A DNA stretch of 64,000 nucleotides from Rhizobiaceae bacterium. Its GTDB lineage: Bacteria; Pseudomonadota; Alphaproteobacteria; Rhizobiales; Rhizobiaceae. Position 1 is the first letter of the stretch; every line of letters begins with the position of its first letter. The stretch lies in NCBI GenBank assembly GCA_027483885.1, contig JAIXTO010000042.1:18073-82072 (forward strand), read 5' to 3'. Shown here piece by piece: positions 28,848 through 49,504 of this stretch. The notes under the pieces were generated by a model, which saw only the letters and a program-made list of their open reading frames with translations, did no database searches and was not told the origin of the DNA. Made by a program: the position numbers and the translations under genes.

Positions 28848-28872
28848 GGCTGATGTCCTGTCGATTCTAACG

Positions 28873-29733
28873 TCAGTGGTTGCTGGTCTTCCAGCGGACG
28901 ATTTTCTTTTCCGCCAGCGACACGATGGAAAACAGCGTGACGGCAAGGGCTGCTGCAATCATCACCGTGGCGTAGAGCAGCGGCGAGCGGAAATTGTAGG
29001 TGGCCTCGATGATCAGCGCCCCGAGCCCGAAGCTTGATCCGATCCACTCGGCAACGATGGCGCCCATGACGCAACTGGTGGCAGCGATGCGCAGCGCGGC
29101 AAAAAGAAAGGGCATGGAGGCCGGGAGGCGGACCTTCCAGAGGATTTCCATCTGGCTTGCGGAAAGAACGCGCATCAGGTCCAGCATGGCGGGGCTTGCC
29201 GAGCGCAGGCCCTGGACCATGTTGACCAGCGTTGGAAAGAAGCAGATCAGGCCGGCAATGATGATCTTGGGTGCCACGCCATTGCCGAAGATCAGCACCA
29301 GGATCGGTGCAAGCGCGATGATCGGGATCGATTTGATAAAGACGGCGATCGGATAAAAGGCCTTCTCCGCATTGCTGTTGTGAACGAACCAGACGGCAAG
29401 CAGGATGGCGGCGAGATTGCCGAAGAAAAAACCTGCCAGGGCTTCCATCAGGGTCGGAAGCAGGTTCGTCCACAGCACGCCGGCATTGTCGCGAAGGGCA
29501 GCAAGCACTTCCAGCGGAGCCGGTGCCATGAAGGTCGGCACAGAAAAGACCGTGATGACGGACTGCCACAAAACGATGCAGCCGATGGCCGCGGTGATCG
29601 TCGGCCAGCGGTTGGCAAGCCAGTTCATCACGCCCTTCTGCAGGCAAACGCCAAGCGGCAGCGGCGCATCCTGGCGCCCGGACATATCCGCATCGCCGGC
29701 GGCAATTTTTGTCGAGGGTGCAATCTCGCTCAT
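28873..29733 (-). CDS. ABC transporter permease (SsuC/TauC-like)
   Basis: EALAGFFFGNLAAILLAVWFVHNSNAEKAFYPIAVFIKSIPIIALAPILVLIFGNGVAPKIIIAGLICFFPTLVNMVQGL. Confidence 0.93.
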   Translation of the reverse strand: MSEIAPSTKIAAGDADMSGRQDAPLPLGVCLQKGVMNWLANRWPTITAAIGCIVLWQSVITVFSVPTFMAPAPLEVLAALRDNAGVLWTNLLPTLMEALAGFFFGNLAAILLAVWFVHNSNAEKAFYPIAVFIKSIPIIALAPILVLIFGNGVAPKIIIAGLICFFPTLVNMVQGLRSASPAMLDLMRVLSASQMEILWKVRLPASMPFLFAALRIAATSCVMGAIVAEWIGSSFGLGALIIEATYNFRSPLLYATVMIAAALAVTLFSIVSLAEKKIVRWKTSNH

Positions 29734-30548
29734 CAGCATTCCTCCAGAAGGGCACGCAGATGTGCGGTGATCTTCACGAATTCCAGCGTATCGCGGATCT
29801 TCAGCGAGCGGGGGAAGGGAAGGTCCACCTTCAGGAACTCCTTCACGCGGCCCGGATGAGATTGCAGCATCAGCACATGCTGGCCGAGAAACACCGCCTC
29901 CGGGATGGAGTGCGTGACGAAGAGGATGGTGGTCCCGGTCTCCTGCCAGAGGCGCAGCAATTCCTCGTTCAGCTTGTCGCGGGTGATTTCGTCGAGCGCG
30001 CCGAACGGTTCGTCCATCAGAAGGATGCGCGGGCGCGTCACCAGCGCCCTTGCAATCGCCACGCGCTGGCGCTGGCCGCCGGACAACTCGTCCGGCAGGG
30101 CATTTTCGCGTCCCTTGAGGCCAACCATGTCCAGCAGTTGCGCAGGATCGGCATAGGAACTGCCGGGACCATGGCGGCCGACTTCAAGCGGCAGGCGCAC
30201 ATTGTCGATCACAGTTCGCCAGGGCAAAAGCGTTGCCTCCTGGAAGACGAAGGCAAAATCGCGGCCTTCCCGCGCCTGCCTTGGCGTTTGCCCGTTGACC
30301 GAAACGGTGCCGCCGCTGATCGGCACGAGATCGGCGACACAGCGCAGAAGCGTCGATTTCCCGCAACCCGATGGACCCAGCATGGTGACGAAACCGCCCT
30401 GCGGAATATCCACGGACACTTTTGACAGTGCCGTGAATTGCGATGCGCCGCTTCCGAAACGGATGTCGAGATTGCGGATGGAAACGGCAGGCGCGCAAAA
30501 AGCCGCGTCCATGGGCGTGTGCTCTTTTGCAAGACCGGCTGCCATCAC
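29733..30548 (-). CDS. ABC transporter ATP-binding protein (SsuB/TauB-like)
   Basis: Walker A GPSGCGKST; LSGGQRQRVAIARAL; LLMDEPFGALDE. Confidence 0.95.
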   Translation of the reverse strand: MMAAGLAKEHTPMDAAFCAPAVSIRNLDIRFGSGASQFTALSKVSVDIPQGGFVTMLGPSGCGKSTLLRCVADLVPISGGTVSVNGQTPRQAREGRDFAFVFQEATLLPWRTVIDNVRLPLEVGRHGPGSSYADPAQLLDMVGLKGRENALPDELSGGQRQRVAIARALVTRPRILLMDEPFGALDEITRDKLNEELLRLWQETGTTILFVTHSIPEAVFLGQHVLMLQSHPGRVKEFLKVDLPFPRSLKIRDTLEFVKITAHLRALLEEC

Positions 30549-30550
30549 GG

Positions 30551-31582
30551 TTATCCCACCTGCTTGCGGATGTCGGCGGTGGCGTCGAGGATCGCCAGGC
30601 TCATGACGTCATCGACAGTCGGCACCGAGCCCTTGAACTGTCCGAGATCGGCATAGGCGCCGAGCTGGGCCTTCCAGTTGTCGGCGTTCATGGCGCCCCA
30701 GCCGCTTTTCGCCGTCACATCGTTGAAGGCAAATTTCATCAACGGGCCGATCGCTTCCAGTTCATTCGCCTTGTCGAGATTGGGGTAGGCCTCCACCAGA
30801 AGCGAGACCGCTTCCTCCTGGTGATCGCGGGCATAACCCCAGCCCCTGGCGGTGGCGCCCAGGAAGCGTGTCAACTCGTCTGAATGCTTGGAAAGCTGGG
30901 CGTCCGTGGTGTAATAAACGTTGGCGTAAAGCTGCAGCCCGCCATCCCACAACATGAGATCGACACGGTCGTCGCCGAGCACCTTGAGGGCGCTGGTATT
31001 GGTGAGCCAGCCGGTCACGGCATCGGCCTGACCGGTGATCAACTGGTTCATGTCGGAGCCCATGTTGACCATCTTCACCTGGTCTTCCGCAATGCCGTTC
31101 TTCGCGAGAAGCGCCCGCAGCAGGATGAAGGCCGTCGGTTGTGTGGCAATGGTCTTGCCGATCATGTCCTTCGGCGAGGCAATCGGCTTGCCCTTGCGCG
31201 AGAAGTAAGCAAACGGGTGCTTCTGATAACCCGCTGCAATGGCTTTCACCGGCATGCCGGCAGAGCGGGCCAGCATGACCGACGGGCTCGACGAGATCTG
31301 TCCGAGCGTCGATTGTCCGGCTGCGACGCCGGCCACGCCATCGACATTCGGGCCCCCGGGCACGATGTCGAGCGTGATACCCGCATCCTTGTAGAACCCT
31401 TTCTTCATGGCGACGACCTCGCCCAGAATTCCGTTGGAGGCCAACCAGCCGAGCTGCATGCGGATCGTAGCATCGGCGGCGCGGGCGCTGGAGATGCTGA
31501 GGAGACTTGAGGTGGCTGCAAGCGTGCCCGCAGCGGCGCTGCCGGCGAGAAATCCGCGCCGGTTCATCGATAAATTGGACAT
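30551..31582 (-). CDS. ABC transporter substrate-binding protein (NMT1/SsuA-like), Tat-type signal
   Basis: MSNLSMNRRGFLAGSAAAGTLAATSSLLSISSARAADATIRMQLGWLASNGILGEVVAMKKGFYKDAGITLDIVPGG; likely start 31582. Confidence 0.9.
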   Translation of the reverse strand: MSNLSMNRRGFLAGSAAAGTLAATSSLLSISSARAADATIRMQLGWLASNGILGEVVAMKKGFYKDAGITLDIVPGGPNVDGVAGVAAGQSTLGQISSSPSVMLARSAGMPVKAIAAGYQKHPFAYFSRKGKPIASPKDMIGKTIATQPTAFILLRALLAKNGIAEDQVKMVNMGSDMNQLITGQADAVTGWLTNTSALKVLGDDRVDLMLWDGGLQLYANVYYTTDAQLSKHSDELTRFLGATARGWGYARDHQEEAVSLLVEAYPNLDKANELEAIGPLMKFAFNDVTAKSGWGAMNADNWKAQLGAYADLGQFKGSVPTVDDVMSLAILDATADIRKQVG

Positions 31583-31672
31583 CTGGTTCCCCTTTTTGGA
31601 GCGCGACTGTGACCGGTCACGCCGTATGCCTTCTGGCACTGGAGGAAATGATGCGGGAAGGAAGCGTTCTAA

Positions 31673-31697
31673 GAAAGAAGAATTTTTAGTTTCTTTC
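31673..31697. promoter_or_regulatory. Inverted repeat GAAAGAA-N11-TTCTTTC upstream of the NMT1-type SBP gene, followed by TTGCC-N5-GGCAA (31699-31713)
   Basis: Directly read; two adjacent dyads in the promoter region of the minus-strand ABC operon. Confidence 0.4.
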
Positions 31698-31896
31698 ATT
31701 GCCGATATGGCAACGCATTTTAGGCAGGATCTGGTCGGCAAGACGGCCGCCGGCGCGGCCGCAGTTTTTGCCGATCAGTGCAAACCTTTGCCGCTTCCTC
31801 GATGCGGTTCATGTCTTGGGGGAAGGATCTCGATCGCCAACCGTTCGGCGAAACGTGCCTGCGGGGCTCCGCGTCAGCCCTTGCGCCGCCGCCCCA

Positions 31897-33972
31897 TCAA
31901 GGCGAATGCTGCGAGACGGCCACGCGAAAACCGTTGCCGCGCCAGTAGCCATCCGGTTCAAGGCTGCCGCGATAGGTGGTGCAGGCCTTCAGCTTGCCGC
32001 TCGAAAAACATCCGCCGCGCAGTACCCGGCGAATGCGCGGGCCGGCATCGGGGTCTTCCCGGCCATCCATGGCATAGGGGTATGTGAACGAGGGCGTCGT
32101 CATGTCGTTGCCCCAGAGCGTCGTTGTCCATTCCCAGACTTCGCCGGCCATGTCGAAGCAGCCGTAAGGGGACCGCCCCTTGGGAAACAACCCGACAGCA
32201 ACAGTGCGGTTGAAGCCGGCTTCCTCGGAATTGCAGGCGTCCGGCTGGAACTGCGCGCCCCAGGGATAAACGATGGTCTGGTCGCCAGCATCCGGCTGAT
32301 CGCCGCGGGCTGCCCGTTCCCATTCCGGTTCGGTGGGCAGGCGCACCACGTCATGCGGCTCGATCCGGCCTTCGGCCCGCCACCGCAGCGTCAGCCAGGC
32401 GCAGTAGGCGTTCGCATCATGCCAGGTGAGATCGGTTGCCGGCGCATTGCGGCGCTCGGGGTCGTGCGCCTCGGGGCTTTTCCATGACCGCCCCGTCTCT
32501 GCGATGAAGCGGGCGTAATCGGCATTGACGACGGGATAACGACCGAGGCGAAAGGCTTCCACGGTGACCGGATGGGCGGGTGCGGAATTCGGATGGGTTG
32601 CCGATCCGAACGTGAAGGTGCCGCCGGGGATATCGGCAAGCCCCTGCAGATCGCGCGGATCACCGAAATACGAGAGCGTGCGCGCGGCCCGTTCACGGCG
32701 ATAGGCCGAGAGGCGGCCCTCTTCGACAACCGACAGAAGAAGCGGCAGTACGTGCTGGCGAAGCTCTGGCGCCTGTTCCAGAAATTCGGCGGCGAGCAAC
32801 GCGCCGTGGAACGGCATGTCATCGGGTCCGGAAAGCAGTGGCTCGATCAGCGGTGCAATCGGCCGGCCGCTTGCCAGCAGCCGGCGGGCAAGGTTCTGGA
32901 TCAGCGGCTCGAAGGCCTGCGGGTTCTCGCGGTAGAGCGCTACTGCCTCTGCCGGCGGATGAAGATGAAGCTCGTTTGCAGCCAGCAGCGTCGAAAACCG
33001 GAGGCCTAGCGTCTGCAGTCTTTGCAGGATCGTGTCATTCTGTTCAAAACCATCGCCTGTGACATACGCCAGCGCATGACGCGTCACCACCATCGGATCA
33101 ATGCCGAGCTGCCGGGCGACTCCGCCCGCCCAGGCATCGGCCAGGGCCTGTTCGCTGTCCGGCTCCGTCTGCGGCTGGATTTCCATCCGGGCACCGAAGA
33201 GGGCCGGGTTGGCGGTCAGGCTCGAGAGCAGGTTTACCGGCATTTCGGGTGCGCCCGCCCGCCGCTGGCTGGCAAGAAGCGGCAGCAATTCATATCGCGG
33301 CAGATCGGCGGGCAGCGGCCAGTCGCGCACGATGCGGCTGTCGCCGAGAAGGAGAGCGCGCACATGGGGCGTCGTGGCCTGAAATTGTCGCACCGCATCG
33401 ATCATCTGTGGCCCCGCCGCCTGAAGGGCGTCGATGCCGTCGACAATCAGCAGCAAGCCGGCATCGCCGTCGCACCAGGTATCGCTGTCGAGGAGGGTGC
33501 AGAGACCGGGCAGGCGGCGCTCGATCAGCGTTTCAAGCGTCAGGCCCGCTTGCGCGTCGATCACCAGCGGCACGAGGTTTTGGATGTCGAACATTTCAGG
33601 CGCGGTGTCGCCTGCCTCGTTGCGGACGATCATGCGGGGTGCGTTTTCGCCCGAGGCAATCTGCCAGGCAAGCTGGCGGGCAAAGCTCGTCTTGCCGGCG
33701 CCGCTCTCGCCGGTGAGGAGCAGCAGGGCGTGGTCACGCACCATTTCCACAGCCGAAAAATGCTGCGGTACGGGAGGCGGGGCGCCGTCGGCAAACACAC
33801 GCAGGCCCTTGGCCGCCTTGTCCTCGTCGGTGAAATTGACAAGAAGCGGGATGAAACCCTCGATCAGCGAAACAGGCCGGCCCTGCGGCCCCTCGTCCGG
33901 CAGGACATGAACCACGGTGCTTGCAGCCGTGGCGACGGCCTCCGTTCGCAGGCGATCAAGGGCATCATGCAT
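31897..33972 (-). CDS. STAND/NACHT-like P-loop NTPase fused to C-terminal FGE-sulfatase (SUMF1-like) domain
   Basis: 691 aa. Walker A LLLLTGESGAGKTS (about residues 83-96), Walker B-like LLLIVDGIDAL (about 173-183), HEAT-like linker RRERAARTLSYFGDPRDLQ, then FGE-sulfatase IPGGTFTFGS...HPVTVEAFRLGRYPVVNADYARFI...RLPTEPEWERAARG...YGCFDMAGEVWEWT...RRVLRGGCFSS...YRGS...GFRVA. Confidence 0.88.
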   Translation of the reverse strand: MHDALDRLRTEAVATAASTVVHVLPDEGPQGRPVSLIEGFIPLLVNFTDEDKAAKGLRVFADGAPPPVPQHFSAVEMVRDHALLLLTGESGAGKTSFARQLAWQIASGENAPRMIVRNEAGDTAPEMFDIQNLVPLVIDAQAGLTLETLIERRLPGLCTLLDSDTWCDGDAGLLLIVDGIDALQAAGPQMIDAVRQFQATTPHVRALLLGDSRIVRDWPLPADLPRYELLPLLASQRRAGAPEMPVNLLSSLTANPALFGARMEIQPQTEPDSEQALADAWAGGVARQLGIDPMVVTRHALAYVTGDGFEQNDTILQRLQTLGLRFSTLLAANELHLHPPAEAVALYRENPQAFEPLIQNLARRLLASGRPIAPLIEPLLSGPDDMPFHGALLAAEFLEQAPELRQHVLPLLLSVVEEGRLSAYRRERAARTLSYFGDPRDLQGLADIPGGTFTFGSATHPNSAPAHPVTVEAFRLGRYPVVNADYARFIAETGRSWKSPEAHDPERRNAPATDLTWHDANAYCAWLTLRWRAEGRIEPHDVVRLPTEPEWERAARGDQPDAGDQTIVYPWGAQFQPDACNSEEAGFNRTVAVGLFPKGRSPYGCFDMAGEVWEWTTTLWGNDMTTPSFTYPYAMDGREDPDAGPRIRRVLRGGCFSSGKLKACTTYRGSLEPDGYWRGNGFRVAVSQHSP

Positions 33973-33980
33973 GACAGACC

Positions 33981-34376
33981 TCAGCGGAAAAGTTTGGCGA
34001 CGTCGGGATTGTGAAAGCGCTGGATCTCGATGGCATAACCGGCGGGATCCTCGAAAAAGAAATGTTCGCAGAACGTGCCGCGCAGCATATCCGAAAGACC
34101 GGGCACTTTTGCGGCAGAGAGCTTGTCATGCCAGGCCTGAACCTCTTCGCTGACGATGGTCAGCAGGACCGCGCTTTTCGGCTGGTGCTTCAGGTGGCCG
34201 CGATTGCCATCGACAATGCCGAAATAGCTGTTGGGCGCGATGCGATAGATGCGCGCCATGGTCTGGTCGAGCACCAGTTCGAAGCCCAGCACCTCCTCGT
34301 AGAAGGGAATGACGGCATGGATGTCGTCGTAATAGAAGAAGGTGATCGAATAATCTCTGGTCAAATCTCTGGTCAT
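33981..34376 (-). CDS. VOC-family (glyoxalase/bleomycin-resistance fold) protein
   Basis: 131 aa; SITFFYYDDIHAVIPFYEEVLGFELVLDQTMARIYRI...FGIVDGNRGHLKHQP...FFEDPAGYAIEIQRF. Confidence 0.9.
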   Translation of the reverse strand: MTRDLTRDYSITFFYYDDIHAVIPFYEEVLGFELVLDQTMARIYRIAPNSYFGIVDGNRGHLKHQPKSAVLLTIVSEEVQAWHDKLSAAKVPGLSDMLRGTFCEHFFFEDPAGYAIEIQRFHNPDVAKLFR

Positions 34377-34390
34377 GGGCTTTCTCCGGA

Positions 34391-35785
34391 TCAGGCGACG
34401 ACGAGCGTGCCCTTGTGGTCAATCGACAGGCCGTTCAGGCCTTTGCGGGCGGCAAACACGTCGATGGGATGGGTAATGTAGAGCCAGGGCGGGTTGTCCC
34501 TGAGGTGCGACAGGCATTTCCCATAGGCTGTTTCGCGGGCTTCCGGCGCGACCGCCGCGTTTGCCGCGGCAATCAACTGCTCGGCCTGCGGATCGTCGAA
34601 CCCCTGCCACCAAACGGCCTTCGTGACGCTTGAAATCTTGTCGTTCAGGATGCGGTAGGTGCTGTGCGGCGAGGAATCGAAGATCGCCATGTCGCCCATT
34701 TCCTTGCGGCCGATCTGGCGGGCGTATTCAGGTCTGTCCTCCTCGATTTCGACATCCACGACAAGGCCAACGGCCTCAAGCGCTCCCGCCACGAAGGCAC
34801 TGATCTCAGGAGCCCGCTCCGGCATGAAGGTGGGGCTGCGCAAACAGATGCGGGTGCCGATGGCGCCGATCTCTTCCAGAAGCGCACGGGCCTTTTGCGG
34901 ATCGTACGCGATCGGCTCCAGTTTGGCCGAGGCCATGCCGAGGTGGAAAGGGCTGACAATGGAGGAGGATGGGATGGCGAGGCCGTGAAAAATGTCCCGC
35001 ACGATGGCTTGGCTGTCGACGGCGTGGTTGACGGCAAGACGCGCCTGCGGGTGGCGGAAAAGCCCTGTCGAACAGTTGAGGTAATACATCACCGACAAGG
35101 TGTTTTCGGCCTGCCCCCAATCAAAGGCCGGATCGAAATCCGGCTTTCCGTGCATGCGCTCGAGATTAAGCGCTGCGTCGGCCTGCCCTTCCTTCATGAG
35201 CGAAAACCGCGCTTCAGCAGAAGGCTCGGCCAATGCTACAATCCTCTGCGGAGCAGCGGTGGCGTCGAGCCTTTCCAGTGTCACGCGCCTTCTTGGCTCA
35301 AAATCCGTGACCCGGAAAGGGCCGGTGCCAAGCGTTGGCGTGCCATCAGGTGCTGTACGGCAAATGTAGAATTCGGAGAAGATGTCGAGGATATCGGCAA
35401 TCGGCCGGGGATTGCTAACGCTGATCGTGAGGTCATCGGGGGCGGAAAGGGTCGCATCGGCGAGATAACGTGCATAGGACCATTTCATGCCAAAGGTGTC
35501 GACGGCCTCCAGAATACCGTCGATGAAGGCGAGGATGTCGGACGCGGTGCAGGGTTTGCCATCATGAAACCGAGCACCGTCGCGGATCCGGAACTGCCAG
35601 TGGCATCCTTCGTGATCCCGCGACCAACCGGAAAAAAGCGCCGGCAAAACCTTACCGTCACGCCATTTCAGCAGCGGTTCGAACACCAGATTTTTCAGCG
35701 TCAACACGCTGGTATCGTCGGTCACGCGGGTCGGCGGCAGGAAATCCACCTTTTCGAGCGCGATGGTCAGGGTCTCTTCTGCCAT
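34391..35785 (-). CDS. Family-5 ABC substrate-binding protein homologue with no recognisable signal peptide
   Basis: Start at 35785: MAEETLTIALEKVDFLPPTRVTDDTSVLTLKNLVFEPLLKWRDGKVLPALFSGWSRDHEGCHWQFRIRDGARFHDGKPCTASDI; the mature-type SBP5 sequence begins at residue 4. Confidence 0.88.
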   Translation of the reverse strand: MAEETLTIALEKVDFLPPTRVTDDTSVLTLKNLVFEPLLKWRDGKVLPALFSGWSRDHEGCHWQFRIRDGARFHDGKPCTASDILAFIDGILEAVDTFGMKWSYARYLADATLSAPDDLTISVSNPRPIADILDIFSEFYICRTAPDGTPTLGTGPFRVTDFEPRRRVTLERLDATAAPQRIVALAEPSAEARFSLMKEGQADAALNLERMHGKPDFDPAFDWGQAENTLSVMYYLNCSTGLFRHPQARLAVNHAVDSQAIVRDIFHGLAIPSSSIVSPFHLGMASAKLEPIAYDPQKARALLEEIGAIGTRICLRSPTFMPERAPEISAFVAGALEAVGLVVDVEIEEDRPEYARQIGRKEMGDMAIFDSSPHSTYRILNDKISSVTKAVWWQGFDDPQAEQLIAAANAAVAPEARETAYGKCLSHLRDNPPWLYITHPIDVFAARKGLNGLSIDHKGTLVVA

Positions 35786-35792
35786 GGAGGCC

Positions 35793-36632
35793 TCAGTTGA
35801 TCTGCGTGCGGCGGCGGGGATTAAACCAGTCGGCAAGGCTGTCACCGATCAGGTTGAAGGAGAGGACGGCGAGCAGAATGGCGCCGCCCGGGGCCAGCAC
35901 CACCCAGATGGCACTGCGCGCATATTGCAGGTTGAGCGCCACGTCCGCGCCCCATTCCGACAGCGGCGGCTGCGCGCCAAGCCCTAGAAAACCAAGGCTT
36001 GCCGTCTGCAGGATGGCACTGCCGAGCGCCAGCGTCGATTGCACCAGAAGCGGGCCGATGCCATTGGCAAAGATATAGCGCAGGAGGATGCGCCGCGATG
36101 ACAGGCCGAGCGAAACGGCCGCCTCCACATAAGGTTTGACGGAGATGGCGAGCGCCTGTCCGCGCGCAACGCGGGCAAATTGCGGGGCAAGCGTGATGGC
36201 AACGGCGAGCATGGCATTCTGCAGGCTGGGGCCGAAGGCGGCGGCAAGCGCGATGGCGAGAACCAGCGCCGGAAACGAGAGGATCGCATCGACGATGCGC
36301 ATGATCACCGTATCCGTCCATCCCCCGACATAACCGGCGAGCGTTCCGAAAAACACGCCGATAACAAAGGCAAGCCCGACAACGCCGAGCCCGATGGCAA
36401 GCGTTGCGCGCCCGCCATACATGATGCGGGTCAGGATATCGCGGCCGAAGGAATCTGTTCCCAGCCAATGGGCAGCGCTTGGTCCTTCGAGCTTATGCAG
36501 AATGTCGAGCTTGGTTGGCGTATAGGGGCTGACGAACGGGCCGACAAAGGCCAGAAGCAGAAGTGCTGCAAGGATGAGAGCGCCGACGAGCGCCAGCCGG
36601 TTGTGCCGGAAAAAGAGGATCGTCTCGGTCAT
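35793..36632 (-). CDS. Dipeptide/oligopeptide ABC transporter permease (DppC-like)
   Basis: MTETILFFRHNRLALVGALILAALLLLAFVGPFVSPYTPTKLD; HWLGTDSFGRDILTRIMYGGRATLAIGLGVVGLAF. Confidence 0.95.
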   Translation of the reverse strand: MTETILFFRHNRLALVGALILAALLLLAFVGPFVSPYTPTKLDILHKLEGPSAAHWLGTDSFGRDILTRIMYGGRATLAIGLGVVGLAFVIGVFFGTLAGYVGGWTDTVIMRIVDAILSFPALVLAIALAAAFGPSLQNAMLAVAITLAPQFARVARGQALAISVKPYVEAAVSLGLSSRRILLRYIFANGIGPLLVQSTLALGSAILQTASLGFLGLGAQPPLSEWGADVALNLQYARSAIWVVLAPGGAILLAVLSFNLIGDSLADWFNPRRRTQIN

Positions 36633-36634
36633 GG

Positions 36635-37645
36635 TCAGTCCATCCTCCGGCGAATGCGGGGGTCGAGCACGCCGTAGAGCAGATCGACGATGATCGAGGT
36701 GGTGACGAAGAGCAGGGCAAAGACGAGCGTCGTGCCCTGGATGACCGGATAATCGCGGTTCTTGATCGCCTCGAACATGTAGCGCCCGATGCCCGGCCAC
36801 GAGAACACGGTTTCGGTGAGGATCGCGCCGCCGAGCATTTCGGCAAATTTCAAACCGATCACGGTGAGCGCTGGCATCAGGGAATTCAAAAGCCCATGCT
36901 TCAGCACCACCTGATGGCGGTGAAGACCCTTGGCGGTGGCCGTGCGAATAAAGTCCTCCCCCATCACCTCCAGCATGGTGTTGCGCACGAAACGGGCAAG
37001 CGTGGCTGCCAGAAACAGCGCGAGAACCGTGACCGGCAGGACCAGATGCGCGAGCCCGCTCAGCGCTGCGGCCGGATTGCCGGCAATCAGGCTGTCGAGA
37101 ATGATGAAGCCGGTGATGGGTTCAACGGTCAGATAGGCATCGAGCCGTCCAGACACCGGCAGCCAGCCGAGATGGGTGGCAAAGATCAGTTGCAGCACGA
37201 GTGCCAGCAGGAAGGCCGGCATGGAAACGCCCATCAGCGAGACGACGCGCAGGGTGTGATCAAACAGCGTGTTGGCTTTGACGGCGGAGAGAACGCCAAG
37301 CGGAATGCCGACAAGAATGGCGACGAGAACGGCGAGCACCGACAGTTCGATGGTGGCGGGAAGGCGTGCCAGAATTTCACGCAGCACCGGCTCGCCGCTT
37401 TTGAGCGACAGGCCGAGATCGCCATGGGCAAGGCCGACCAGATAATCTGTAAACTGCAAAAACACTGGCCGGTCGAGATGCAGTTGCGCGCGAAGTGCGG
37501 CGATCTGCTCGGAGGTGGCGCCCGGGCCAAGCAGCGTCACGGCGGGATCGCCGGGGATGAGGCGGACCAGCGAAAACGCGATGACCAGCACGATGGAAAG
37601 CACCGGGATCAGTCCGATCAGCCGGCGCAGAAGAAAGTTCAGCAT
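36635..37645 (-). CDS. Dipeptide/oligopeptide ABC transporter permease (DppB-like)
   Basis: MLNFLLRRLIGLIPVLSIVLVIAFSLVRLIPGDPAVTLLGPGATSEQIAALRAQLHLDRP; LPVTVLALFLAATLARFVRNTMLEVMGEDFIRTATAKGL. Confidence 0.95.
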   Translation of the reverse strand: MLNFLLRRLIGLIPVLSIVLVIAFSLVRLIPGDPAVTLLGPGATSEQIAALRAQLHLDRPVFLQFTDYLVGLAHGDLGLSLKSGEPVLREILARLPATIELSVLAVLVAILVGIPLGVLSAVKANTLFDHTLRVVSLMGVSMPAFLLALVLQLIFATHLGWLPVSGRLDAYLTVEPITGFIILDSLIAGNPAAALSGLAHLVLPVTVLALFLAATLARFVRNTMLEVMGEDFIRTATAKGLHRHQVVLKHGLLNSLMPALTVIGLKFAEMLGGAILTETVFSWPGIGRYMFEAIKNRDYPVIQGTTLVFALLFVTTSIIVDLLYGVLDPRIRRRMD

Positions 37646-37718
37646 GGGCTCGCTGCCGCTCCTGTTGCGGATGCGCCATCAGAAGACGGCGCATCCGGTC
37701 TGTCGTATCGCAGGTAAC

Positions 37719-39281
37719 TTACCCCTTGGACACGCTCCAGTATTCATTGAGCGGCGGGGCGCTGTTGATGACGAGACCCTTCACGTTGGAACGGGCATAA
37801 ACGATGAGCTTGGGGCTGAACAGATAGGCGCCCGGCACCCGCTTCATGATCTCTTCCTGCACGGTGAAATAGAGCTTCTTGCGGGTTTCCATGTCGGCGG
37901 TCTGCTGCGCCTTGAGGATCAGCGCATCGAGATCCTTGTCTTCAGGCATGCGGAAGGTCATCGCCGTATTGGCAAGCGAAGACAGGTAACCGATGGTGAT
38001 ATGGGCATCCGGATCGTTGTACCAGGGCTGGCGGCCATCAAGCGCCACATCGAACTGGCCGGCGGTCTGCAGCGTGCGATAGGCCGGGAATTCGGTCTGC
38101 TCGATCGTCGCATTGATGCCGATATCGGCCAGGTTTGCCTGCACGAAGGTGGCAACCGCGCCCCAGAGCGGACCCTGGAAGCTGTAGAGCTTGATCGACA
38201 GGCTGGTCGGATCGACACCGGCTTCCTGCAGCAGCTTCTTGGCGAGGTCCGGATCGTATTTCGGTGCAAGCTCCTTCACCTTCGGATCGAAAGCCCAGCT
38301 GTTCGTGGTCAGCGGACCATAAACACGCTCGGCTGTGCCGCCGAAGACACCGGCAAGAAGGCCGTCGTAATCGATGGCGCTGGCAATCGCCTTGCGCACG
38401 CGCACATCGGCAAACGGACCGTCCTTCTTGGAATTGTTGAATTCGAGTTGGCGGATGATCTGGCTCGAGGCTTCGAGAACCTGCACATCCTTGTTTTTCT
38501 TCAGCGAGGCGATGTCTTCGGCGGCGATCGCCGAGAGCTGGCCCTGCTGCTGGACGACATCGACGCCGCCGTTTTCAAGCTCCAGCCGGCGCGTGGAGGC
38601 ATCCGGGATGACGCGGTAAACGATACGCGACAGTTTTGGCGCGCCGCGGAAATAGGAGGGGTTGGCGTCCAGGATCACATTGGTATCGGCCTGCGCGCTC
38701 TTGAACACGAAGGGGCCGGTGCCCACAGGGTTCTTGGCAAAGCTGTCGCCGAATTTCTGGACGGCAGCCGGGCTGACGATGGCGGCCTGCGGCTGGGCAA
38801 GGATCGACAGGAAAGCGGGGTAGGGCTGCGCGAGGCTGATCTTCACTTCCGTCGGCGAGACGACCGCGATATCGGAAATGAGGCCGAACGTCGCCTGCAC
38901 ATAGGAATTGCTCTTCTTCGTGCGCTCCAGCGAAAACTTCACTGCGGCCGCATCGAAATCGGTGCCATCATGGAACTTCACGCCGGGGCGAAGCTTGAAA
39001 TCAAACTCCTTGCCATCGGCCGACACGGTCCATGTATCAGCCAGGCGGCCTTCCACCTTGGTGAAATCAGGTGCGGTCCAGGCCACCAGCGTGTCGAACA
39101 CGTTGAGGATGATTTCGCTGCCGATGGGCTCGGCCTTGTTGGTGCCGGGCTCAAGCGCCACCGGATCGGACGGCACGGCAACGACCAGCGTTTTTGACTG
39201 GTCCTGGGCCTGGGCGTCGATTGCGCCCGCAAGGAGCGGCACCATCAATCCCAGAGTGGCAAACTGCTTCCAGACGGTCAT
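37719..39281 (-). CDS. Family-5 ABC substrate-binding protein (DppA-like) with signal peptide
   Basis: MTVWKQFATLGLMVPLLAGAIDAQAQDQSKTLVVAVPSDPVALEPGTNKAEPIGSEIILNVFDTLVAW; likely start 39281. Confidence 0.93.
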   Translation of the reverse strand: MTVWKQFATLGLMVPLLAGAIDAQAQDQSKTLVVAVPSDPVALEPGTNKAEPIGSEIILNVFDTLVAWTAPDFTKVEGRLADTWTVSADGKEFDFKLRPGVKFHDGTDFDAAAVKFSLERTKKSNSYVQATFGLISDIAVVSPTEVKISLAQPYPAFLSILAQPQAAIVSPAAVQKFGDSFAKNPVGTGPFVFKSAQADTNVILDANPSYFRGAPKLSRIVYRVIPDASTRRLELENGGVDVVQQQGQLSAIAAEDIASLKKNKDVQVLEASSQIIRQLEFNNSKKDGPFADVRVRKAIASAIDYDGLLAGVFGGTAERVYGPLTTNSWAFDPKVKELAPKYDPDLAKKLLQEAGVDPTSLSIKLYSFQGPLWGAVATFVQANLADIGINATIEQTEFPAYRTLQTAGQFDVALDGRQPWYNDPDAHITIGYLSSLANTAMTFRMPEDKDLDALILKAQQTADMETRKKLYFTVQEEIMKRVPGAYLFSPKLIVYARSNVKGLVINSAPPLNEYWSVSKG

Positions 39282-39509
39282 TCGTGATGCATCCTTCCTG
39301 TTGTGTGAAGCCTTGAGGGTGTGTGCCAAGGCCGGTGGCCGGGGAAAAGCTGTCATTTCCCTGTGATATTCCACGAAATATATCATTGGTTCGCAGCCTG
39401 TAAAGGTCGCATGCCTGTTTCCTGTCCAGGAAGCATGTTTTGCCTATTTTATACTCTCTTGCCGAATGAATTTACTGTATTTAAGCAGTACGACGGGTCG
39501 TTCCGCCAC

Positions 39510-40367
39510 TTATTCAGGCAGAGCGCCGGTCACAACAGGCCGGTCCGGGTCTGTCACCCAATGCGACCAGGAACCGGGATACATCGCAGCCTCGATGCCA
39601 ATGGCGGCAAGTGCCAGCACCGAATGGGCCGCCGACATGCCGGCACCACAATAGACGCCGACCGGCTTAGCCCCATCGGCGCCTAAGGCCGCATACATCG
39701 CGCGCAGCGTGTCGCTCTCGGTGAAATTGCCGTAATCGGTGACATTATCGGGGGCAGGGGCGGAGCGGGCGCCGGGAATATGCCCGCGCGGCGGCTGGCC
39801 GGGGGCGGCCACCCCGCCGATATAGTTCGGGCGGATGCGAGCATCGATGAGCACGCCCGAGCGGGCAATATCGAGCGCCTCGTCTGGCCCGAATTCCGGC
39901 ATGTGGCCGCCCGTCAGCGTGATCGTGCTGGGATGGGGTTGTGTTTCGGTGTCGCTGACCGGCAGTCCGGCGGAAAGCCAGGCGGGAAAACCACCGTCGA
40001 GCACGCGCACATCGGAAAATCCCGCCCAGCGCAGCACCCACCAGGCGCGCGCCGCCGTCATGCTGCGGTCGGCATCATAAACCACGATGGTGCTGTCGCG
40101 CCGCAGGCCCCACGCCCGGGCCCTTACCTCAAAATCCTCGATGCGGGGCAGCGGTCGCTGTCCGGCACCCGGCGAGGCGGGCGACTGGAAATCCCGGTAC
40201 GCCTCAGTATCGATGGCACCTTCGATGCGCTTGCCGGTAAAATAGTTTTGGCCCGTATAAGGGTTGACCGAGTGGACGGCGAGGATGGTGATGTCATGGC
40301 CGCCGAGCCGCATGGCCTGCAGCTGCTGCGGGGTTAAAAGCACGCGTTCACGGATCGGATCGGTCAT
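39510..40367 (-). CDS. Sulfurtransferase with two rhodanese domains (SseA-like)
   Basis: ILAVHSVNPYTGQNYFTGKRIEGAIDTEAYRDFQSPA; VVYDADRSMTAARAWWVLRWAGFSDVRVLDGGFPAWLSAGLP; active-site loop VYCGAGMSAAHSVLALAAIGIE. Confidence 0.9.
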   Translation of the reverse strand: MTDPIRERVLLTPQQLQAMRLGGHDITILAVHSVNPYTGQNYFTGKRIEGAIDTEAYRDFQSPASPGAGQRPLPRIEDFEVRARAWGLRRDSTIVVYDADRSMTAARAWWVLRWAGFSDVRVLDGGFPAWLSAGLPVSDTETQPHPSTITLTGGHMPEFGPDEALDIARSGVLIDARIRPNYIGGVAAPGQPPRGHIPGARSAPAPDNVTDYGNFTESDTLRAMYAALGADGAKPVGVYCGAGMSAAHSVLALAAIGIEAAMYPGSWSHWVTDPDRPVVTGALPE

Positions 40368-40401: not shown

Positions 40402-41136
40402 CTAGAGCGTCAGGCCGGAGCGGCCGTTGGAGATGAGCGCCGTCAAAATGCCGACGCGGGTGTTTTCGTTGTGGCGCACCATGGCAGCGCGGGCTGCCTG
40501 CGCATCACGCTTGCGCAGGACCTCGACGATCTCGTGATGATCGCGGTTGGTTTCCGGGTTCACGTCGCGCATGCGCGCGCCCATGTAGAAGAGCCGGGCG
40601 CATTCCTCGAGATGGCTGATGACCAGAGCATGCAGGCGCGGATTGCGCGAGGCCTGGGCAATGGCCGCATGAAACGCCTGGTTTGCCTCGACAAAACTGC
40701 GCACGCTGGCGTTTTCGCCCAGCTCGTAATTGACGTCGGCCAGCCTATCCAGTTCATCGAGTTCTTCGGCCGTCAGGTTTTCCGCGGCGAGCGCTGCCGC
40801 CGATCCCTCCAGCATTTCACGGATGGCGAAGAGGTCGTTCATGTCCTTCACCGTCACCGGCGTCACGCGGTAGCCGCGCCGGGGATAGGCTTCCATGAAA
40901 CCTTCGACGCAGAGCCGTGCCAAGGCTTCACGTACCGGCGTCTTGCTCACCGAAAGCTGCTCGGCCAGTTCCGGCTCGGACACTTCCATGCCCGGCGGCA
41001 TATCACCGGTGATGATCCGCTCACGCAGGCTCGCATAGGCCATTTCCGTCAGCGACTTGCCGCGACGGGCCGTCTGGGGTTCGCCTGGCTGGTCCATATC
41101 CGCTGCAATCTCTGTCATTCTTCGTTCCGTTCGCAA
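40402..41136 (-). CDS. GntR family transcriptional regulator (FadR/FCD subfamily)
   Basis: wHTH LTEMAYASLRERIITGDMPPGMEVSEPELAEQLSVSKTPVREALARLCVEGFMEAYPRRGYRV; C-terminal FCD. Confidence 0.94.
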   Translation of the reverse strand: MRTERRMTEIAADMDQPGEPQTARRGKSLTEMAYASLRERIITGDMPPGMEVSEPELAEQLSVSKTPVREALARLCVEGFMEAYPRRGYRVTPVTVKDMNDLFAIREMLEGSAAALAAENLTAEELDELDRLADVNYELGENASVRSFVEANQAFHAAIAQASRNPRLHALVISHLEECARLFYMGARMRDVNPETNRDHHEIVEVLRKRDAQAARAAMVRHNENTRVGILTALISNGRSGLTL

Positions 41137-41284
41137 GGTCGCTGCCGATATAGGCGCTTCATGCGTTTCCCGCTATACCAGTGGCGCGCTTGTGCTTTGA
41201 CAGGCCGAAATCCCTGAGATATTACGTAGTATATTAACGGCGGTTCGTGTTGACCGCAATCCCTGTCATGCCCCGGATGCCCCA

Positions 41285-41947
41285 GTGTCTCAGATTCTCG
41301 TCATCAATCCCAACAGTTCCGTCTCCGTGACGCGGTCGATGGAGGATTGCCTTGCGCCGGTGCGCGCCGCCTCCCGCCATGACGTGATGTGTACGGAACT
41401 GGCAAAATCGCCGCCGGGCATCGAAACCGATGCACATGTGCAGGAAGTGATCCCGCATCTCATCGAAAAGATCCGCGGTTCGGATGCCGATGCCTTCGTC
41501 GTCGCCTGTTTTTCCGACCCGGGCATCGACACGGTGCGCAAGGCAACGACGCGCCCGGTGATCGGCATTGCGGAAGCCGCTTATCTCGCAGCACTCGGCC
41601 TTGGCCGTCGCTTCGGTATAGTCTCGCTTGGGCCATCCTCAATTGCCCGGCACCTGCGTTACCTCAAACATCTTAATCTCGATCAGCGGCTTGCCGGCGA
41701 TCGCTCCATCGACATGACGGTGGTGCAGTTGATGGCAACGGACGCCGCCGAACAGGTTGCACGGATCGGACGGGCATTGCGTGACGAGGATGGCGCCGAT
41801 GTCATCATTCTCGGCTGCGCCGGCCTTGGCGGTTATCGGCCTCAGATCGAGGCGCTGCTCGGCCTTCCCGTGGTTGATCCGGTGCAGGCCGGGGCAGCAC
41901 TTGCCTGCACCACGGTTGATTTGAACTATACGAGGACGCTTGCATGA
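41285..41947 (+). CDS. Asp/Glu racemase family protein (hydantoin racemase-like)
   Basis: ILVINPNSSVSVTRSMEDCLAPVRAASRHDVMC; DAFVVACFSDPGIDTVRKATTRPVIGIAEAAYLAALGLGRRFGIVSLG; ADVIILGCAGLGGYRPQIEALLGLPVVDPVQAG; GTG start. Confidence 0.9.
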   Translation: MSQILVINPNSSVSVTRSMEDCLAPVRAASRHDVMCTELAKSPPGIETDAHVQEVIPHLIEKIRGSDADAFVVACFSDPGIDTVRKATTRPVIGIAEAAYLAALGLGRRFGIVSLGPSSIARHLRYLKHLNLDQRLAGDRSIDMTVVQLMATDAAEQVARIGRALRDEDGADVIILGCAGLGGYRPQIEALLGLPVVDPVQAGAALACTTVDLNYTRTLA

Positions 41948-43305
41948 GCTTTGATCTTCTCATCCGCGGCACGCTTGTTTTGCCCGAAGGACCGCTGGAA
42001 AACGGCTGGCTTGCCATCCGGAGCGGCCGCATCGAGGCCATCGGCACCGGCGAGGCGCCGGCGGCAGGCGAGGTGTTCGATGCCGGTAACAATCTGATCA
42101 TTCCGGGTGTCGTCGACGGCCAGACCCATGCCGGCAGCTATGGCGGCCTCAAAGGCATCGGCTCGACCACCCGTTCGGCGATTGCCGGCGGCGTTACCAC
42201 CATTGTCGACATGCCCTATGACAACCCGGCGCCGCTCAACACCCGCGAGCGGTTGGGCGAAAAGATCGCCGCCATCAACGAACATGCCCACGCCCATGTG
42301 GCGCTTTATGCAACCGTGATGCCGGGGCAGGACATGGCGGAGGTGGCAGGCCTTGTCGAGGGCGGTGTCGTCGCATTCAAGATCTCCACCTTCGAAAGCA
42401 GCCCGACACGCTTTCCCCGCATCGGCGCCGACCAGATGCTGGATCTCTTCGAGGCGCTGTCGCAGACCGATATTCCGCTCGGCGTCCACAACGAGGACCA
42501 GGAGATTGTGCGTGCCCGCATTGCCAAGGCCAAAGTGGCCGGCCGCGATGGCATCGAGGCGCATTCGCAAAGCCGGCCGCCGGCCGCAGAACTTGCCGCC
42601 ACCGCGCATTTCCTCGAGTTGGGAGCCGCAGCCGGCGCCCACGCGCATATCGTCCACCTGACATCTTCGCGTGGTTTCCAGCTGGTCGAGCATTACCGCG
42701 CCGATGGTTTTCGCACGACGGGCGAGCTTTGCGTGCATTACCTGTGGTTTGATCCGGCAACCGATGGTGCGCTTGGTGCCCGCATGAAGGTAAACCCGCC
42801 GATCCGCCCCGGCGAAATCGAGCCGCTCTGGCAAGAAGTGCTGTCGGGCCGCGTTGCATTTGTCAGCTCGGATCATTCCAGCTGGCCGATCGACAACAAG
42901 TTCACGCCCTCCATCTTCGAGGCCGGCGCCGGCGTGCCGGGGCTCGAAACGCTGCTGCCGGCCTTTTATACCGGTGCGGAAAACCGCGGGCTCGATGCGC
43001 CGCAGCTCACCGTTTCTCAGCTTTGCGAACGCCCGGCACGTTTCTTTGGCCTTTATCCGCAAAAGGGCGTGTTGGCCGTGGGCGCCGATGCGGATATCGT
43101 CATTCTCAGCCGCGAAACCTATCCGTGGGACAGCGCCAAGGCCCATGACGATCTCAACTGGAGCCCGTTTGACGGGCGCAATTTCACCGTGCGGGTGGCC
43201 CGCACCTATCTGTCCGGAACGCTTGCCTTCGATGGTGCCTCCGTCGTCAACAAGGCCGGCGACGGCACCTATGCTGCCCGTGGCGCAAGCCACTGGTTTT
43301 CCTAA
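41944..43305 (+). CDS. Cyclic amidohydrolase (hydantoinase/allantoinase/dihydroorotase family)
   Basis: FDLLIRGTLVLPEGPLENGWLAIRSGRIEAIG; NLIIPGVVDGQTHAGSYGG; AFVSSDHSSWPIDNK; QKGVLAVGADADIVIL. Confidence 0.9.
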   Translation: MSFDLLIRGTLVLPEGPLENGWLAIRSGRIEAIGTGEAPAAGEVFDAGNNLIIPGVVDGQTHAGSYGGLKGIGSTTRSAIAGGVTTIVDMPYDNPAPLNTRERLGEKIAAINEHAHAHVALYATVMPGQDMAEVAGLVEGGVVAFKISTFESSPTRFPRIGADQMLDLFEALSQTDIPLGVHNEDQEIVRARIAKAKVAGRDGIEAHSQSRPPAAELAATAHFLELGAAAGAHAHIVHLTSSRGFQLVEHYRADGFRTTGELCVHYLWFDPATDGALGARMKVNPPIRPGEIEPLWQEVLSGRVAFVSSDHSSWPIDNKFTPSIFEAGAGVPGLETLLPAFYTGAENRGLDAPQLTVSQLCERPARFFGLYPQKGVLAVGADADIVILSRETYPWDSAKAHDDLNWSPFDGRNFTVRVARTYLSGTLAFDGASVVNKAGDGTYAARGASHWFS

Positions 43306-43353: not shown

Positions 43354-44280
43354 ATGACCCGCATTTCTGCCGAAAGCAAAGGCGTCTACATCATCGCCGT
43401 CACGCCGTTTCACGATGATGGCGCCATCGATACCGCAAGCGTCGACCGCATGGTCGATTTCTATATGGACAAGGGCGCTGACGGACTGACCATTCTCGGC
43501 ATGATGGGCGAAGCGCCAAAACTGACGCAGCAGGAATCCATCGACGTCACCCGCCAGGTGATCGCAAGGGCGGCGGGAAAACCGGTCGTGGTCGGCGTTT
43601 CTGCGCCGGGTCTTGCAGCCATCGGCGAACTGACCAAGGCGGTGATGGATCTGGGCGCTGCCGGCGTCATGGTGGCGCCGACCGCCGCCCTTCGCACCGA
43701 CGACCAGATCCTCGGTTATTACCGCAATGTCGTGGCAACGATCGGCCCGGACGTGCCGCTGGTGCTGCAGGATTTTCCGCTGGCAACCGGCGTGCAGATC
43801 TCCACCCGCACCATCGGCGCCATCATCGAGGCTCTGCCGAGCATGGTCATGCTGAAGCATGAGGATTGGCCGGGCCTCGACAAGATCAGCGATCTTCGCG
43901 ACGCGGAAGCCGCAGGCCGCCGGCGCATTTCCATCCTCTGCGGCAATGGCGGCGTGTTCCTGCCAGAGGAAATGGGTCGTGGTGCCGATGGTGCCATGAC
44001 CGGGTTTGCCTATCCGGAAATGATGGTCGATGTGGTGCGTCTGGCCAATGCCGGCGACATGCAGCGCGCGCAGGACCTGTTTGATGCCTATCTGCCGCTC
44101 GCCCGTTTCGAGCAGCAGCCGGGCCTTGGCCTTGCCGTGCGCAAATATGTGCTCGCCAAGCGCGGCGCAATCGCCAGCCAGGCCCAGCGTCGCCCGGGCG
44201 CCAGCCTCGGCGCAAAGGCGGTTGCCGAAGTGGATAACCTGATGGCACGGCTGGACAGGCGGCTTGCCGAACTGGCTTGA
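43354..44280 (+). CDS. Dihydrodipicolinate synthase (DapA/NanA) family protein
   Basis: KGVYIIAVTPFHDDGAIDTASVDRMVDFYMDKGADGLTILGMMGEAPKLTQQE; LQDFPLATGV; Schiff-base Lys in MVMLKHEDWPG. Confidence 0.92.
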   Translation: MTRISAESKGVYIIAVTPFHDDGAIDTASVDRMVDFYMDKGADGLTILGMMGEAPKLTQQESIDVTRQVIARAAGKPVVVGVSAPGLAAIGELTKAVMDLGAAGVMVAPTAALRTDDQILGYYRNVVATIGPDVPLVLQDFPLATGVQISTRTIGAIIEALPSMVMLKHEDWPGLDKISDLRDAEAAGRRRISILCGNGGVFLPEEMGRGADGAMTGFAYPEMMVDVVRLANAGDMQRAQDLFDAYLPLARFEQQPGLGLAVRKYVLAKRGAIASQAQRRPGASLGAKAVAEVDNLMARLDRRLAELA

Positions 44281-44335
44281 TGCCGAACATTTTTGCAGAG
44301 CCTCAGTTGAGGCATTGGCCGGACAGGGTGACCTC

Positions 44336-45490
44336 ATGACGTCCTTCGACTTCGATACGCTGATCGAGCGCCGCGGAACCGACGCAAAGAAATGGGCCGC
44401 CTATCCGGCAGACGTCCTGCCCATGTGGGTGGCAGATATGGATTTTGCAGCGCCCCCGTCGGTCATCGAGGCGCTGCAGGCCCGCGTCGAGCATGGCGTG
44501 TTCGGTTATGGCCTGCCGCAGGATGCATTTCGCCAGCAGATCGTCGATGACACGCAGGCGAAATATGGCTGGGCGATCTTGGCCGACGATATCGTCTTCC
44601 TGCCGGGGGTCGAGCCGGGCTTCAACATGGCGCTGAAATCGGAAACGAAGCCCGGCGACGGCCTGCTGATCCAGACGCCGATCTATAGCCCCATCCTCAA
44701 TGCGCACCGTCATTGGGGGCTGGAAAGCATCGAGGCGCCGCTGGTGACGACCGGCGAGGGTTACGAGATGGATACGGCAGCGCTGGATGCCGCCATGGCG
44801 AAAAGCCGGGCCTTCCTGCTCTGCAATCCGCACAACCCGACCGGCAAGGCGCTCACGCACAGCGAATTGACGGCCATCGCCGCCTCCGCCATTCGCCACG
44901 ACGTTCTGGTGATTGCCGACGAAATCCACTGCGAACTGCTGCTCGACGGTCGCCGCCACATTCCGATCGCCTCGCTCTCGCCGGAGATCGCAGAGCGAAC
45001 CATCACGCTGATGTCGGCCAGCAAGACCTATAATATCGCAGGCTTGAAGACGGCTTTTGCCATTGTCACCAACGCGAACCTGCGCAAACGCTTCAACAGT
45101 GCCCGTCTTGGGCTGGTGGACAGCGTCAATGTGCTCGGGCTTGAGGCAAGCCGCGCGGCCTATGCGACCGCCAGCGCCTGGCGCGATGCGCTGCTGACCT
45201 ATCTGCAGGACAACCGCGATTACCTGCAGGGCGAAATCGCACGACGCTTTCCCGCCATCCGCATGGTGCCGGCCCAGGCCACCTATCTCGCCTGGCTGGA
45301 TTGTTCGGCGCTTGGCCTCGCCGAACCGCCGCAGAGCTTCTTTCTCGACAGGGGCCGAGTGGCCTTCAGCGCCGGTTCCGATTTCGGTTCGAACTACGGA
45401 AAGTTCCTCAGGGTCAACTTCGGTTGCCCGCGCCCTCTTCTGGAGGAGGGGCTCAAGCGGATGGAAGCAGCGCTTTCATCGCGTCTCTAG
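44336..45490 (+). CDS. MalY/PatB-type PLP-dependent aminotransferase / C-S lyase
   Basis: FDTLIERRGTDAKKWAAYPADVLPMWVADMDFAAPPSVIEAL; LLCNPHNPTGKA; LVIADEIHCELLLDGRRHIPIASL; SASKTYNIAGLKTAFAIV. Confidence 0.93.
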   Translation: MTSFDFDTLIERRGTDAKKWAAYPADVLPMWVADMDFAAPPSVIEALQARVEHGVFGYGLPQDAFRQQIVDDTQAKYGWAILADDIVFLPGVEPGFNMALKSETKPGDGLLIQTPIYSPILNAHRHWGLESIEAPLVTTGEGYEMDTAALDAAMAKSRAFLLCNPHNPTGKALTHSELTAIAASAIRHDVLVIADEIHCELLLDGRRHIPIASLSPEIAERTITLMSASKTYNIAGLKTAFAIVTNANLRKRFNSARLGLVDSVNVLGLEASRAAYATASAWRDALLTYLQDNRDYLQGEIARRFPAIRMVPAQATYLAWLDCSALGLAEPPQSFFLDRGRVAFSAGSDFGSNYGKFLRVNFGCPRPLLEEGLKRMEAALSSRL

Positions 45491-46982: not shown

Positions 46983-47717
46983 ATGCATCAGAAGACCGGG
47001 CTCGTTGTCAGTGCCCATTCCGCAGATTTCGTCTGGAGGGCCGGCGGCGCTATCGCGGCTCATACCAAGCAGGGTTATGCTGTCACCGTCGTGTGCCTGT
47101 CATTCGGCGAACGCGGCGAGTCCGCCAAGCTCTGGCGCAAAGCCGGCATGACACTCGACGCCGTGAAGACCGACCGCAGGCGCGAGGCGGAGAATGCCGC
47201 CAAAGCGCTTGGCGTTCACGATATCCAGTTCTATGACCTGGGCGATTATCCCCTGCAGATCACGCCGGCGGCGTTCGATCGGCTGGTCGATCTCTACCGC
47301 GAGATCCGCCCGGAATTCATGCTGACCCATTCCCGCCAGGACCCCTACAACTTCGACCACCCGATGGCCACGGAGTTTGCGCAGCATGCGCGGGTCATCG
47401 CCCAGGCACACGGGCACCGGCCGGACGTGCCTGTGCTCGGCGCTCCCCCGGTTTACCTCTTTGAGCCGCACCAGCCGGAGCAGTGCAACTGGAAGCCCAA
47501 TTTCCTTCTCGATATCACCGAGGTCTGGGAGAAGAAGCTGGCAGCCATCAAATGCATGGAAGGCCAGGAGCATCTCTGGGAATATTATACCCGGGTCGCG
47601 CTTCAGCGTGGTGTCCAGGCCTCGCGCAATTCCGACTATAAGATCACCTATGGCGAGGCCTATGAGGCGGTTTTTCCGCATGTCACCGGCACGCTCGGTC
47701 ATGGAGCCTTGGCATGA
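46983..47717 (+). CDS. galB: PIG-L/LmbE-family protein, probable 4-oxalomesaconate hydratase (GalB-like)
   Basis: [43 protein letters not shown]...[24 protein letters not shown]; followed by CHA aldolase and PrpF-type tautomerase homologues. Confidence 0.78.
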
Positions 47718-48388: not shown

Positions 48389-48435
48389 TCAGAAGCCGGG
48401 AAAGGGGGAGGAACCTTTGCCGCACGGGAGGACAT

Positions 48436-49320: not shown

Positions 49321-49322
49321 CA

Positions 49323-49480: not shown

Positions 49481-49504
49481 CCTCAACAAAAATCAACAGG
49501 AGTG

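Follow-up and report, generated by a model that had tools for sequence, protein, structure and literature searches.

A 64,000-nucleotide stretch of contig JAIXTO010000042.1 (GenBank assembly GCA_027483885.1) from a Rhizobiaceae bacterium, hereafter the window, carries an ATP-binding cassette (ABC) importer operon in which the genes for a cytosolic SBP5-fold solute-binding protein (SBP; cytSBP5), a VOC-fold protein, and a STAND-type NTPase joined to an FGE domain (NACHT-FGE) form a conserved unit with the importer. The gene order SBP5-DppB-DppC-cytSBP5-VOC-NTPase-FGE was identical in 37/37 other alphaproteobacterial loci, and the operator in front of this operon recurs beside a divergent set of catabolic genes. 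We put at roughly even odds (about 0.5) the reading that this is a GntR-controlled uptake and catabolism regulon with a co-opted STAND-FGE sensor plus a cytosolic SBP and a VOC protein. An earlier reading of the window's letters (the original prediction) had singled out the six importer-side genes as its best candidate for an undescribed system, and no prior description of the operon was found in the literature searched, which leaves out most subscription journals.

The six open reading frames (ORFs) were all present on the minus strand where they had been placed. Their spacers are 73 bp (SBP5-DppB), 2 bp (DppB-DppC), 7 bp (DppC-cytSBP5), 14 bp (cytSBP5-VOC), and 8 bp (VOC-NTPase), so the predicted tight packing of the last five is correct. 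Among the six proteins, Pfam recognized SBP_bac_5 twice, BPD_transp_1 twice, Glyoxalase/VOC, and FGE-sulfatase; the SBP5 and the two permeases constitute a Dpp-type importer. The unit is larger than these six genes: the original prediction overlooked its sulfurtransferase and GntR genes, along with the hydantoinase operon that diverges from them and the operator common to both sides. The features of the locus, with the evidence for each assignment in brackets, are as follows.

31897..33972, minus strand: NACHT/STAND-like NTPase (residues ~1-245), helical region (246-440), and FGE/C-type-lectin-fold domain (441-691), with no effector domain (Pfam, Walker motifs, AF2, Foldseek)
33981..34376, minus strand: VOC-fold protein (Pfam Glyoxalase, 6e-10; ortholog identities)
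34391..35785, minus strand: cytosolic SBP5-fold protein without signal peptide (Pfam SBP_bac_5, 1e-43; N-termini; AF2)
35793..36632, minus strand: DppC-type permease (Pfam, NCBIfam)
36635..37645, minus strand: DppB-type permease (Pfam, NCBIfam)
37719..39281, minus strand: periplasmic SBP5 with signal peptide, DppA/GsiB/NikA type (Pfam, NCBIfam)
39364..39385, no strand: operator TGATATATTTCGTGGAATATCA, 5' of SBP5 (conserved at the same place in relatives; 0 expected by chance in the window)
39510..40367, minus strand: two-domain rhodanese, 3-mercaptopyruvate sulfurtransferase-like (MST), with a CGAGMSA motif (Pfam, NCBIfam; neighbour conservation)
40402..41136, minus strand: GntR/FCD-family regulator (Pfam, NCBIfam; kept beside the cluster in relatives)
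41215..41236, no strand: second operator TAATATACTACGTAATATCTCA, between GntR and racemase (pattern scan)
41285..41947, plus strand: Asp/Glu/hydantoin racemase family protein (Pfam; conserved across loci)
41944..43305, plus strand: hydantoinase/amidohydrolase, nearest to ErtD, the hydantoin-5-propionate amidohydrolase (NCBIfam, 504.5 bits, cut-off 600)
43354..44280, plus strand: DHDPS-family lyase/aldolase (61-99% identical in loci with enough flank)
44264..45490, plus strand: PatB/MalY-family pyridoxal phosphate-dependent C-S lyase (420 bits, above the cut-off of 340)

A longer ORF, beginning at 39386, would include the operator, which supports 39281 as the start of SBP5.

We searched for NACHT-FGE homologues in 248 genomes of the family, of which 8 had matches (window genome included), and in a GTDB-wide contig collection, which yielded 79 loci; loci are numbered with an L below. 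The 37-locus set comprises the other alphaproteobacterial loci that hold both NACHT-FGE halves on a long enough contig, and spans Rhizobiales, Rhodobacterales, and Rhodospirillales (Rhizobium, Neorhizobium, Shinella, Devosia, Martelella, Aquamicrobium, Roseomonas, Pseudooceanicola, and Rhodospirillales metagenome-assembled genomes). The nearest locus found to that of the window belongs to Neorhizobium galegae, at 75-99% identity per gene. The VOC protein is 65-83% identical across orthologous loci and 96% identical in N. galegae, and its ORF overlaps that of the NTPase by 4 bp in 25/37 loci, which fits translational coupling. When the test was reversed, all 13 Rhizobiaceae genomes (window genome included) that encode a cytSBP5 of at least 46% identity had adjoining VOC and NTPase genes. 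The neighbourhood survey proposed with the original prediction thus found cytSBP5 and VOC beside NACHT-FGE in every locus of the set, and this makes it reasonable to read the unit, as predicted, as a module that senses inside the cell and is coupled to uptake. The cluster is rare, since a query with the VOC protein against 386 genomes sampled class-wide gave no close copy beyond the window genome; no VOC homologue was found among solved structures. Two cluster copies (L042 and L079) show several apparent frameshifts, with split ATPase, DppC, cytSBP5, VOC, or NTPase matches that reflect either sequencing errors or decay.

The second SBP5 was predicted to lack a signal peptide, and this feature is real and kept in all homologues. 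The N-terminus of every cytSBP5 homologue coincides with the expected start of a mature SBP, and the frame 5' of it is the neighbouring gene out of frame. The AlphaFold (AF2) model shows a complete SBP fold (pLDDT 93) that Foldseek matched to DppA, YliB, and NikA with template-modelling (TM) scores of ~0.75-0.85; cytSBP5 is thus an SBP5 fold without a signal peptide. A wider family of signal-less SBP5-fold proteins with the motif DPHDCTDxND, ~30-34% identical to the window cytSBP5, occurs in Alphaproteobacteria (L138 8712-10106; L139 9366-10799; L140 9523-10986; L142 9247-10665; L131-L137). Members of this sister clade stand alone or just behind DppD/F-type ATPase genes, and have no VOC and NTPase genes alongside.

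The cytSBP5, VOC, and NACHT-FGE genes could simply be passengers, held in place by operon inertia and without a joint function. Sister loci do carry cytSBP5-like and VOC-like genes without NACHT-FGE: locus L141 encodes a VOC relative at 35-37% identity, SBP5, the B, C, D, and F components, a cytosolic SBP, amidohydrolases, a racemase, and a DHDPS. The three genes are therefore separable in evolution. That L141 combines SBP, VOC, importer, and racemase genes without NACHT-FGE points to the gain of NACHT-FGE in a single lineage. However, the full co-occurrence and order in 37/37 loci, across several alphaproteobacterial orders and 40-60% protein divergence, together with the frequent 4-bp overlaps and purifying selection, make inertia an improbable explanation.

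The original prediction also held that the importer lacks a DppD/DppF-type ATPase and might be energised in an unusual way. The absence is correct for the unit in the window, but it is not a property of the system, and the consistent absence that the survey was to look for was not observed. A fused DppD-DppF-type ATPase of ~600 residues is encoded in 33/37 loci, nearly always adjoining the MST gene; in L039, the fused ATPase gene lies downstream, after the PatB gene. The cluster ATPase is missing in the window, Rhizobium rhizoryzae (L009), N. galegae (L024), and Neorhizobium sp. (L026), and was not seen in L041 and L049, where the contig ends nearby. The genome of the window, a 5.5-Mb draft, gave 52 matches to the oligo_HPY profile and hence encodes many other DppD/F-type ATPases, the nearest of which are 65-67% identical to the cluster ATPase. 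In a tree with long branches, with which substitution is compatible, the nearest copies from this genome and from R. rhizoryzae fell on their own branch, apart from the Rhizobiaceae cluster ATPases. The nearest copies in the window genome (on C179, and on C110, where the gene is cut by the contig end) also have their own adjoining SBP and permease genes, and those of R. rhizoryzae likewise adjoin transporter genes of their own. Both observations disfavour a relocated orthologue of the cluster ATPase. The missing gene is best read as a loss in the Neorhizobium-type lineage that is covered by another ATPase, and one of the other DppDF-type ATPases of the window genome presumably serves DppBC.

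These data also bear on whether the importer could be energised by the STAND NTPase in place of ABC ATPases, as the window and three related loci without a local ABC ATPase might suggest. The STAND protein does lack ABC motifs, as had been noted, and close ATPase homologues are encoded elsewhere in the window genome. Because the fused ATPase and NACHT-FGE co-exist in most loci, this idea is refuted in practice, and we give it next to no weight.

We then considered the NACHT-FGE protein itself. Matches of the window NTPase half to the NACHT, nSTAND3, and AAA profiles were all below Pfam cut-offs, so the predicted STAND/NACHT-like label falls short for this protein taken singly; it is upheld by the homologues, 21/31 of which match the NACHT profile (best 4.8e-8). 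The Walker A lysine is kept in 30/31 homologues (Arg in L047), and Asp178 of the Walker B motif (hhhhD[GA]x[DE]) in 31/31. By Pfam, neither the window protein nor its homologues contain a helix-turn-helix (HTH) or tetratricopeptide repeat (TPR) domain, and no fused effector or output domain was found: only ~45-80 residues precede the P-loop, with no other Pfam domain, and the alphaproteobacterial form thus lacks the space for an effector. The C-terminal part has the FGE fold (PF03781, 4e-43; Foldseek TM to target ~0.7). In the AF2 model (pLDDT 85), the top Foldseek match was ToxD, which among solved structures comes closest to the FGE domain in both sequence (3e-22) and fold. Outside Alphaproteobacteria, the closest homologues come from Chloroflexota: they share the FGE end, their NACHT domain is clear, and their N-terminal region is longer. 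In multicellular bacteria, FGE domains carried by STAND NTPases have been put forward as sensors of antigens (PMC10907252; see also PMC7159879). In L067, L083, and L093, other relatives of the FGE domain occur in fusions with KAP NTPase, DnaJ, or protein kinase domains. The ratio of non-synonymous to synonymous substitution rates (dN/dS) between the window and N. galegae is 0.18 for the NACHT-FGE gene (0.29 in the helical region and 0.13 in the FGE domain), showing that it is under purifying selection.

The same protein could instead act, with VOC and cytSBP5, as a processing or maturation factor, in which the FGE domain, like ToxD or the C-terminal domain of EgtB/SenA, would do chemistry on the imported compound and the NTPase would serve as a chaperone or remodeller. 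Such a role would suit an operon that is otherwise metabolic, the closeness of the FGE domain to ToxD, and the far better conservation of the FGE half (58-76% identity) than of the NTPase half (26-46%) between most loci; Cys655 is moreover invariant in 31/31 homologues. Yet the catalytic copper-binding Cys pair of FGE is not conserved, the first being absent and the second replaced by Asn in 9/31, on which ground an identity as an FGE enzyme was rejected. The N-terminal DinB-like iron-binding domain of EgtB/SenA/OvoA is also lacking (NCBIfam scores of 69-74 bits against cut-offs of 360-420), and the relatives outside the class are signalling-type NACHT-FGE proteins. On balance, we find a maturation role unlikely, if conceivable.

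A further option is an anti-phage or anti-toxin STAND defence protein housed in a metabolic operon. In its favour, conflict systems include STAND-FGE proteins (PMC10907252, PMC7159879), and the NTPase and helical regions evolve fastest here. Against this, there is no effector domain, the FGE domain is conserved rather than diversified, and the gene is always found in the same nutrient operon, preceded by the operator of that metabolic regulon. PADLOC returned weak P-loop matches only (best 5e-4) and no known anti-phage system. We consider a defence role very improbable.

The operator is common to the importer operon and the catabolic genes. Comparing the intergenic regions by eye, we saw the palindrome TNATATAYTWCGTRRWATATCA 5' of SBP5 and between GntR and the racemase gene. 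A pattern scan of the window located it at these two sites (39364-39385 and 41215-41236; expected 0.00), and, with ≤2 mismatches, at no other site in the 5.5-Mb genome; the reversed control gave 0 matches. With ≤3 mismatches, the palindrome was found in nearly all cluster loci having an upstream GntR gene, often with a third copy between the ATPase and MST genes in relatives, and this pattern did not find it in most cluster loci without an upstream GntR gene. It was absent from 561 kb of unrelated loci. The pattern was derived from cluster loci, which makes its presence there partly circular; this caveat does not extend to its absence elsewhere in the genome. Together, these results indicate that the NACHT-FGE and hydantoinase transcripts appear to form one regulon. 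The GntR protein may itself bind the palindrome. A few kb from the cluster, R. rhizoryzae has another ABC importer (L108 4000-16000), whose genes include two for ATPases, two for amidohydrolases, a GntR gene, and a racemase gene; the same palindrome is present there (L108 position 4107).

The MST gene adjoins SBP5 in nearly all loci with intact flanks, and PatB relatives were found in L039, L041, L046-L048, L050, L107, and L109-L111. In L109, the DHDPS-like and PatB genes are separated by an SDR-family gene (~4530-5250); the window has no such gene at this place, and the two genes overlap directly. The catabolic operon of the window is flanked by PIG-L deacetylase, LigK-type aldolase, and PrpF-type isomerase genes (46983-50578). 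Directly after the NACHT-FGE gene, on the same strand, the window also encodes a taurine/nitrate-type ABC importer (SBP, ATPase, permease), an FAD-dependent oxidoreductase, a CaiB-type CoA-transferase, and an enoyl-CoA hydratase (25559-31741), a unit not seen as a conserved neighbour of the cluster in relatives.

Under the regulon reading, the genes controlled by GntR would import and degrade a small nitrogen- and probably sulfur-containing compound, possibly hydantoin- or opine-like. Import would proceed through the periplasmic SBP5, DppBC, and a DppDF-type ATPase, encoded in the cluster in relatives and presumably elsewhere in this genus. The racemase, hydantoinase, DHDPS-like lyase, PatB-like lyase, and sulfurtransferase would process the imported compound, while cytSBP5 and the VOC-fold protein may bind it or an intermediate in the cytosol. 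The effector-less NACHT-FGE ATPase would then be a switch, gated by the ligand or by its cytSBP5 and VOC partners, that sets importer or enzyme activity. Three points weigh against this reading: NACHT-FGE carries neither a DNA-binding domain nor an effector; within the operon it is under the weakest constraint (dN/dS 0.18, compared with 0.03-0.10 elsewhere); and hydantoinase genes were not found beside the Rhodospirillales clusters in the flanking sequence covered, so that the link to hydantoins may hold in some lineages only.

The constant presence of cytSBP5, VOC, and NACHT-FGE in a nutrient cluster suggests that an immune-type sensor has been re-used to monitor a nutrient. In its boldest form, which we advance tentatively as the less probable case, an ABC importer would have taken over an immune-type NACHT-FGE as its nutrient sensor: imported ligand, passed to cytSBP5 and VOC, would switch the STAND protein, which would thereby gate the importer or the pathway. 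If true, this would add a new class to intracellular nutrient sensing, one based on a solute-binding protein that was relocated to the cytosol. One lineage of STAND-FGE proteins, a type discussed in terms of immune or antigen sensing, has become a fixed part of a nutrient-uptake regulon in several alphaproteobacterial orders. With eight core genes and one operator, the system is small and clonable, and offers a way to ask what effector-less FGE/STAND proteins sense and why cells retain an SBP fold in the cytosol.

Among known systems, the NACHT/STAND-FGE proteins of Chloroflexota and multicellular bacteria (PMC10907252; L061, L062, L064, L065, L075) share with NACHT-FGE the order NTPase, helical linker, and C-terminal FGE, a common GC(L/Y)DM motif, and 37-43% identity over the FGE end. 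In contrast to them, the protein described here lacks an effector or adaptor region as large as is usual at the N-terminus, and its NTPase is shrunken; its FGE domain is conserved rather than hypermutated, its gene is fixed in an ABC-importer operon, and no reverse transcriptase was seen in the flanks. ToxD (7SPQ), the closest solved structure to the FGE domain, lacks an NTPase and comes from toxoflavin biosynthesis. The divergent hydantoinase scores far above the next families against ErtD, but below the equivalog cut-off; ergothioneine breakdown was rejected on this score, and no ergothionase or thiourocanate hydratase was identified among the neighbouring genes scanned. Like SgrR, a cytosolic regulator with an SBP_bac_5 domain, cytSBP5 uses the SBP5 fold in the cytosol, but it has no DNA-binding domain and is a separate protein beside an importer. 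The Dpp, Gsi, Nik, and Opp importers have the same SBP5, DppB, and DppC components and, as in the relatives of the window locus, a fused DppDF (GsiA-like) ATPase; the present cluster differs in its extra cytosolic SBP5, VOC, and NACHT-FGE genes and in the loss of the ATPase gene in this genus. MalT is the established precedent of a STAND sensor controlling an ABC-importer regulon, that of maltose; both the importer ATPase and the PatB/MalY-family lyase MalY hold it in check. NACHT-FGE has neither the LuxR-type DNA-binding domain nor the TPR sensor of MalT, which rules out a MalT-type regulator, and GntR with its operator probably controls transcription of the cluster. The likeness to MalT lies in the tie between a STAND ATPase and the regulon of an ABC importer, with a PatB-family gene present here too.

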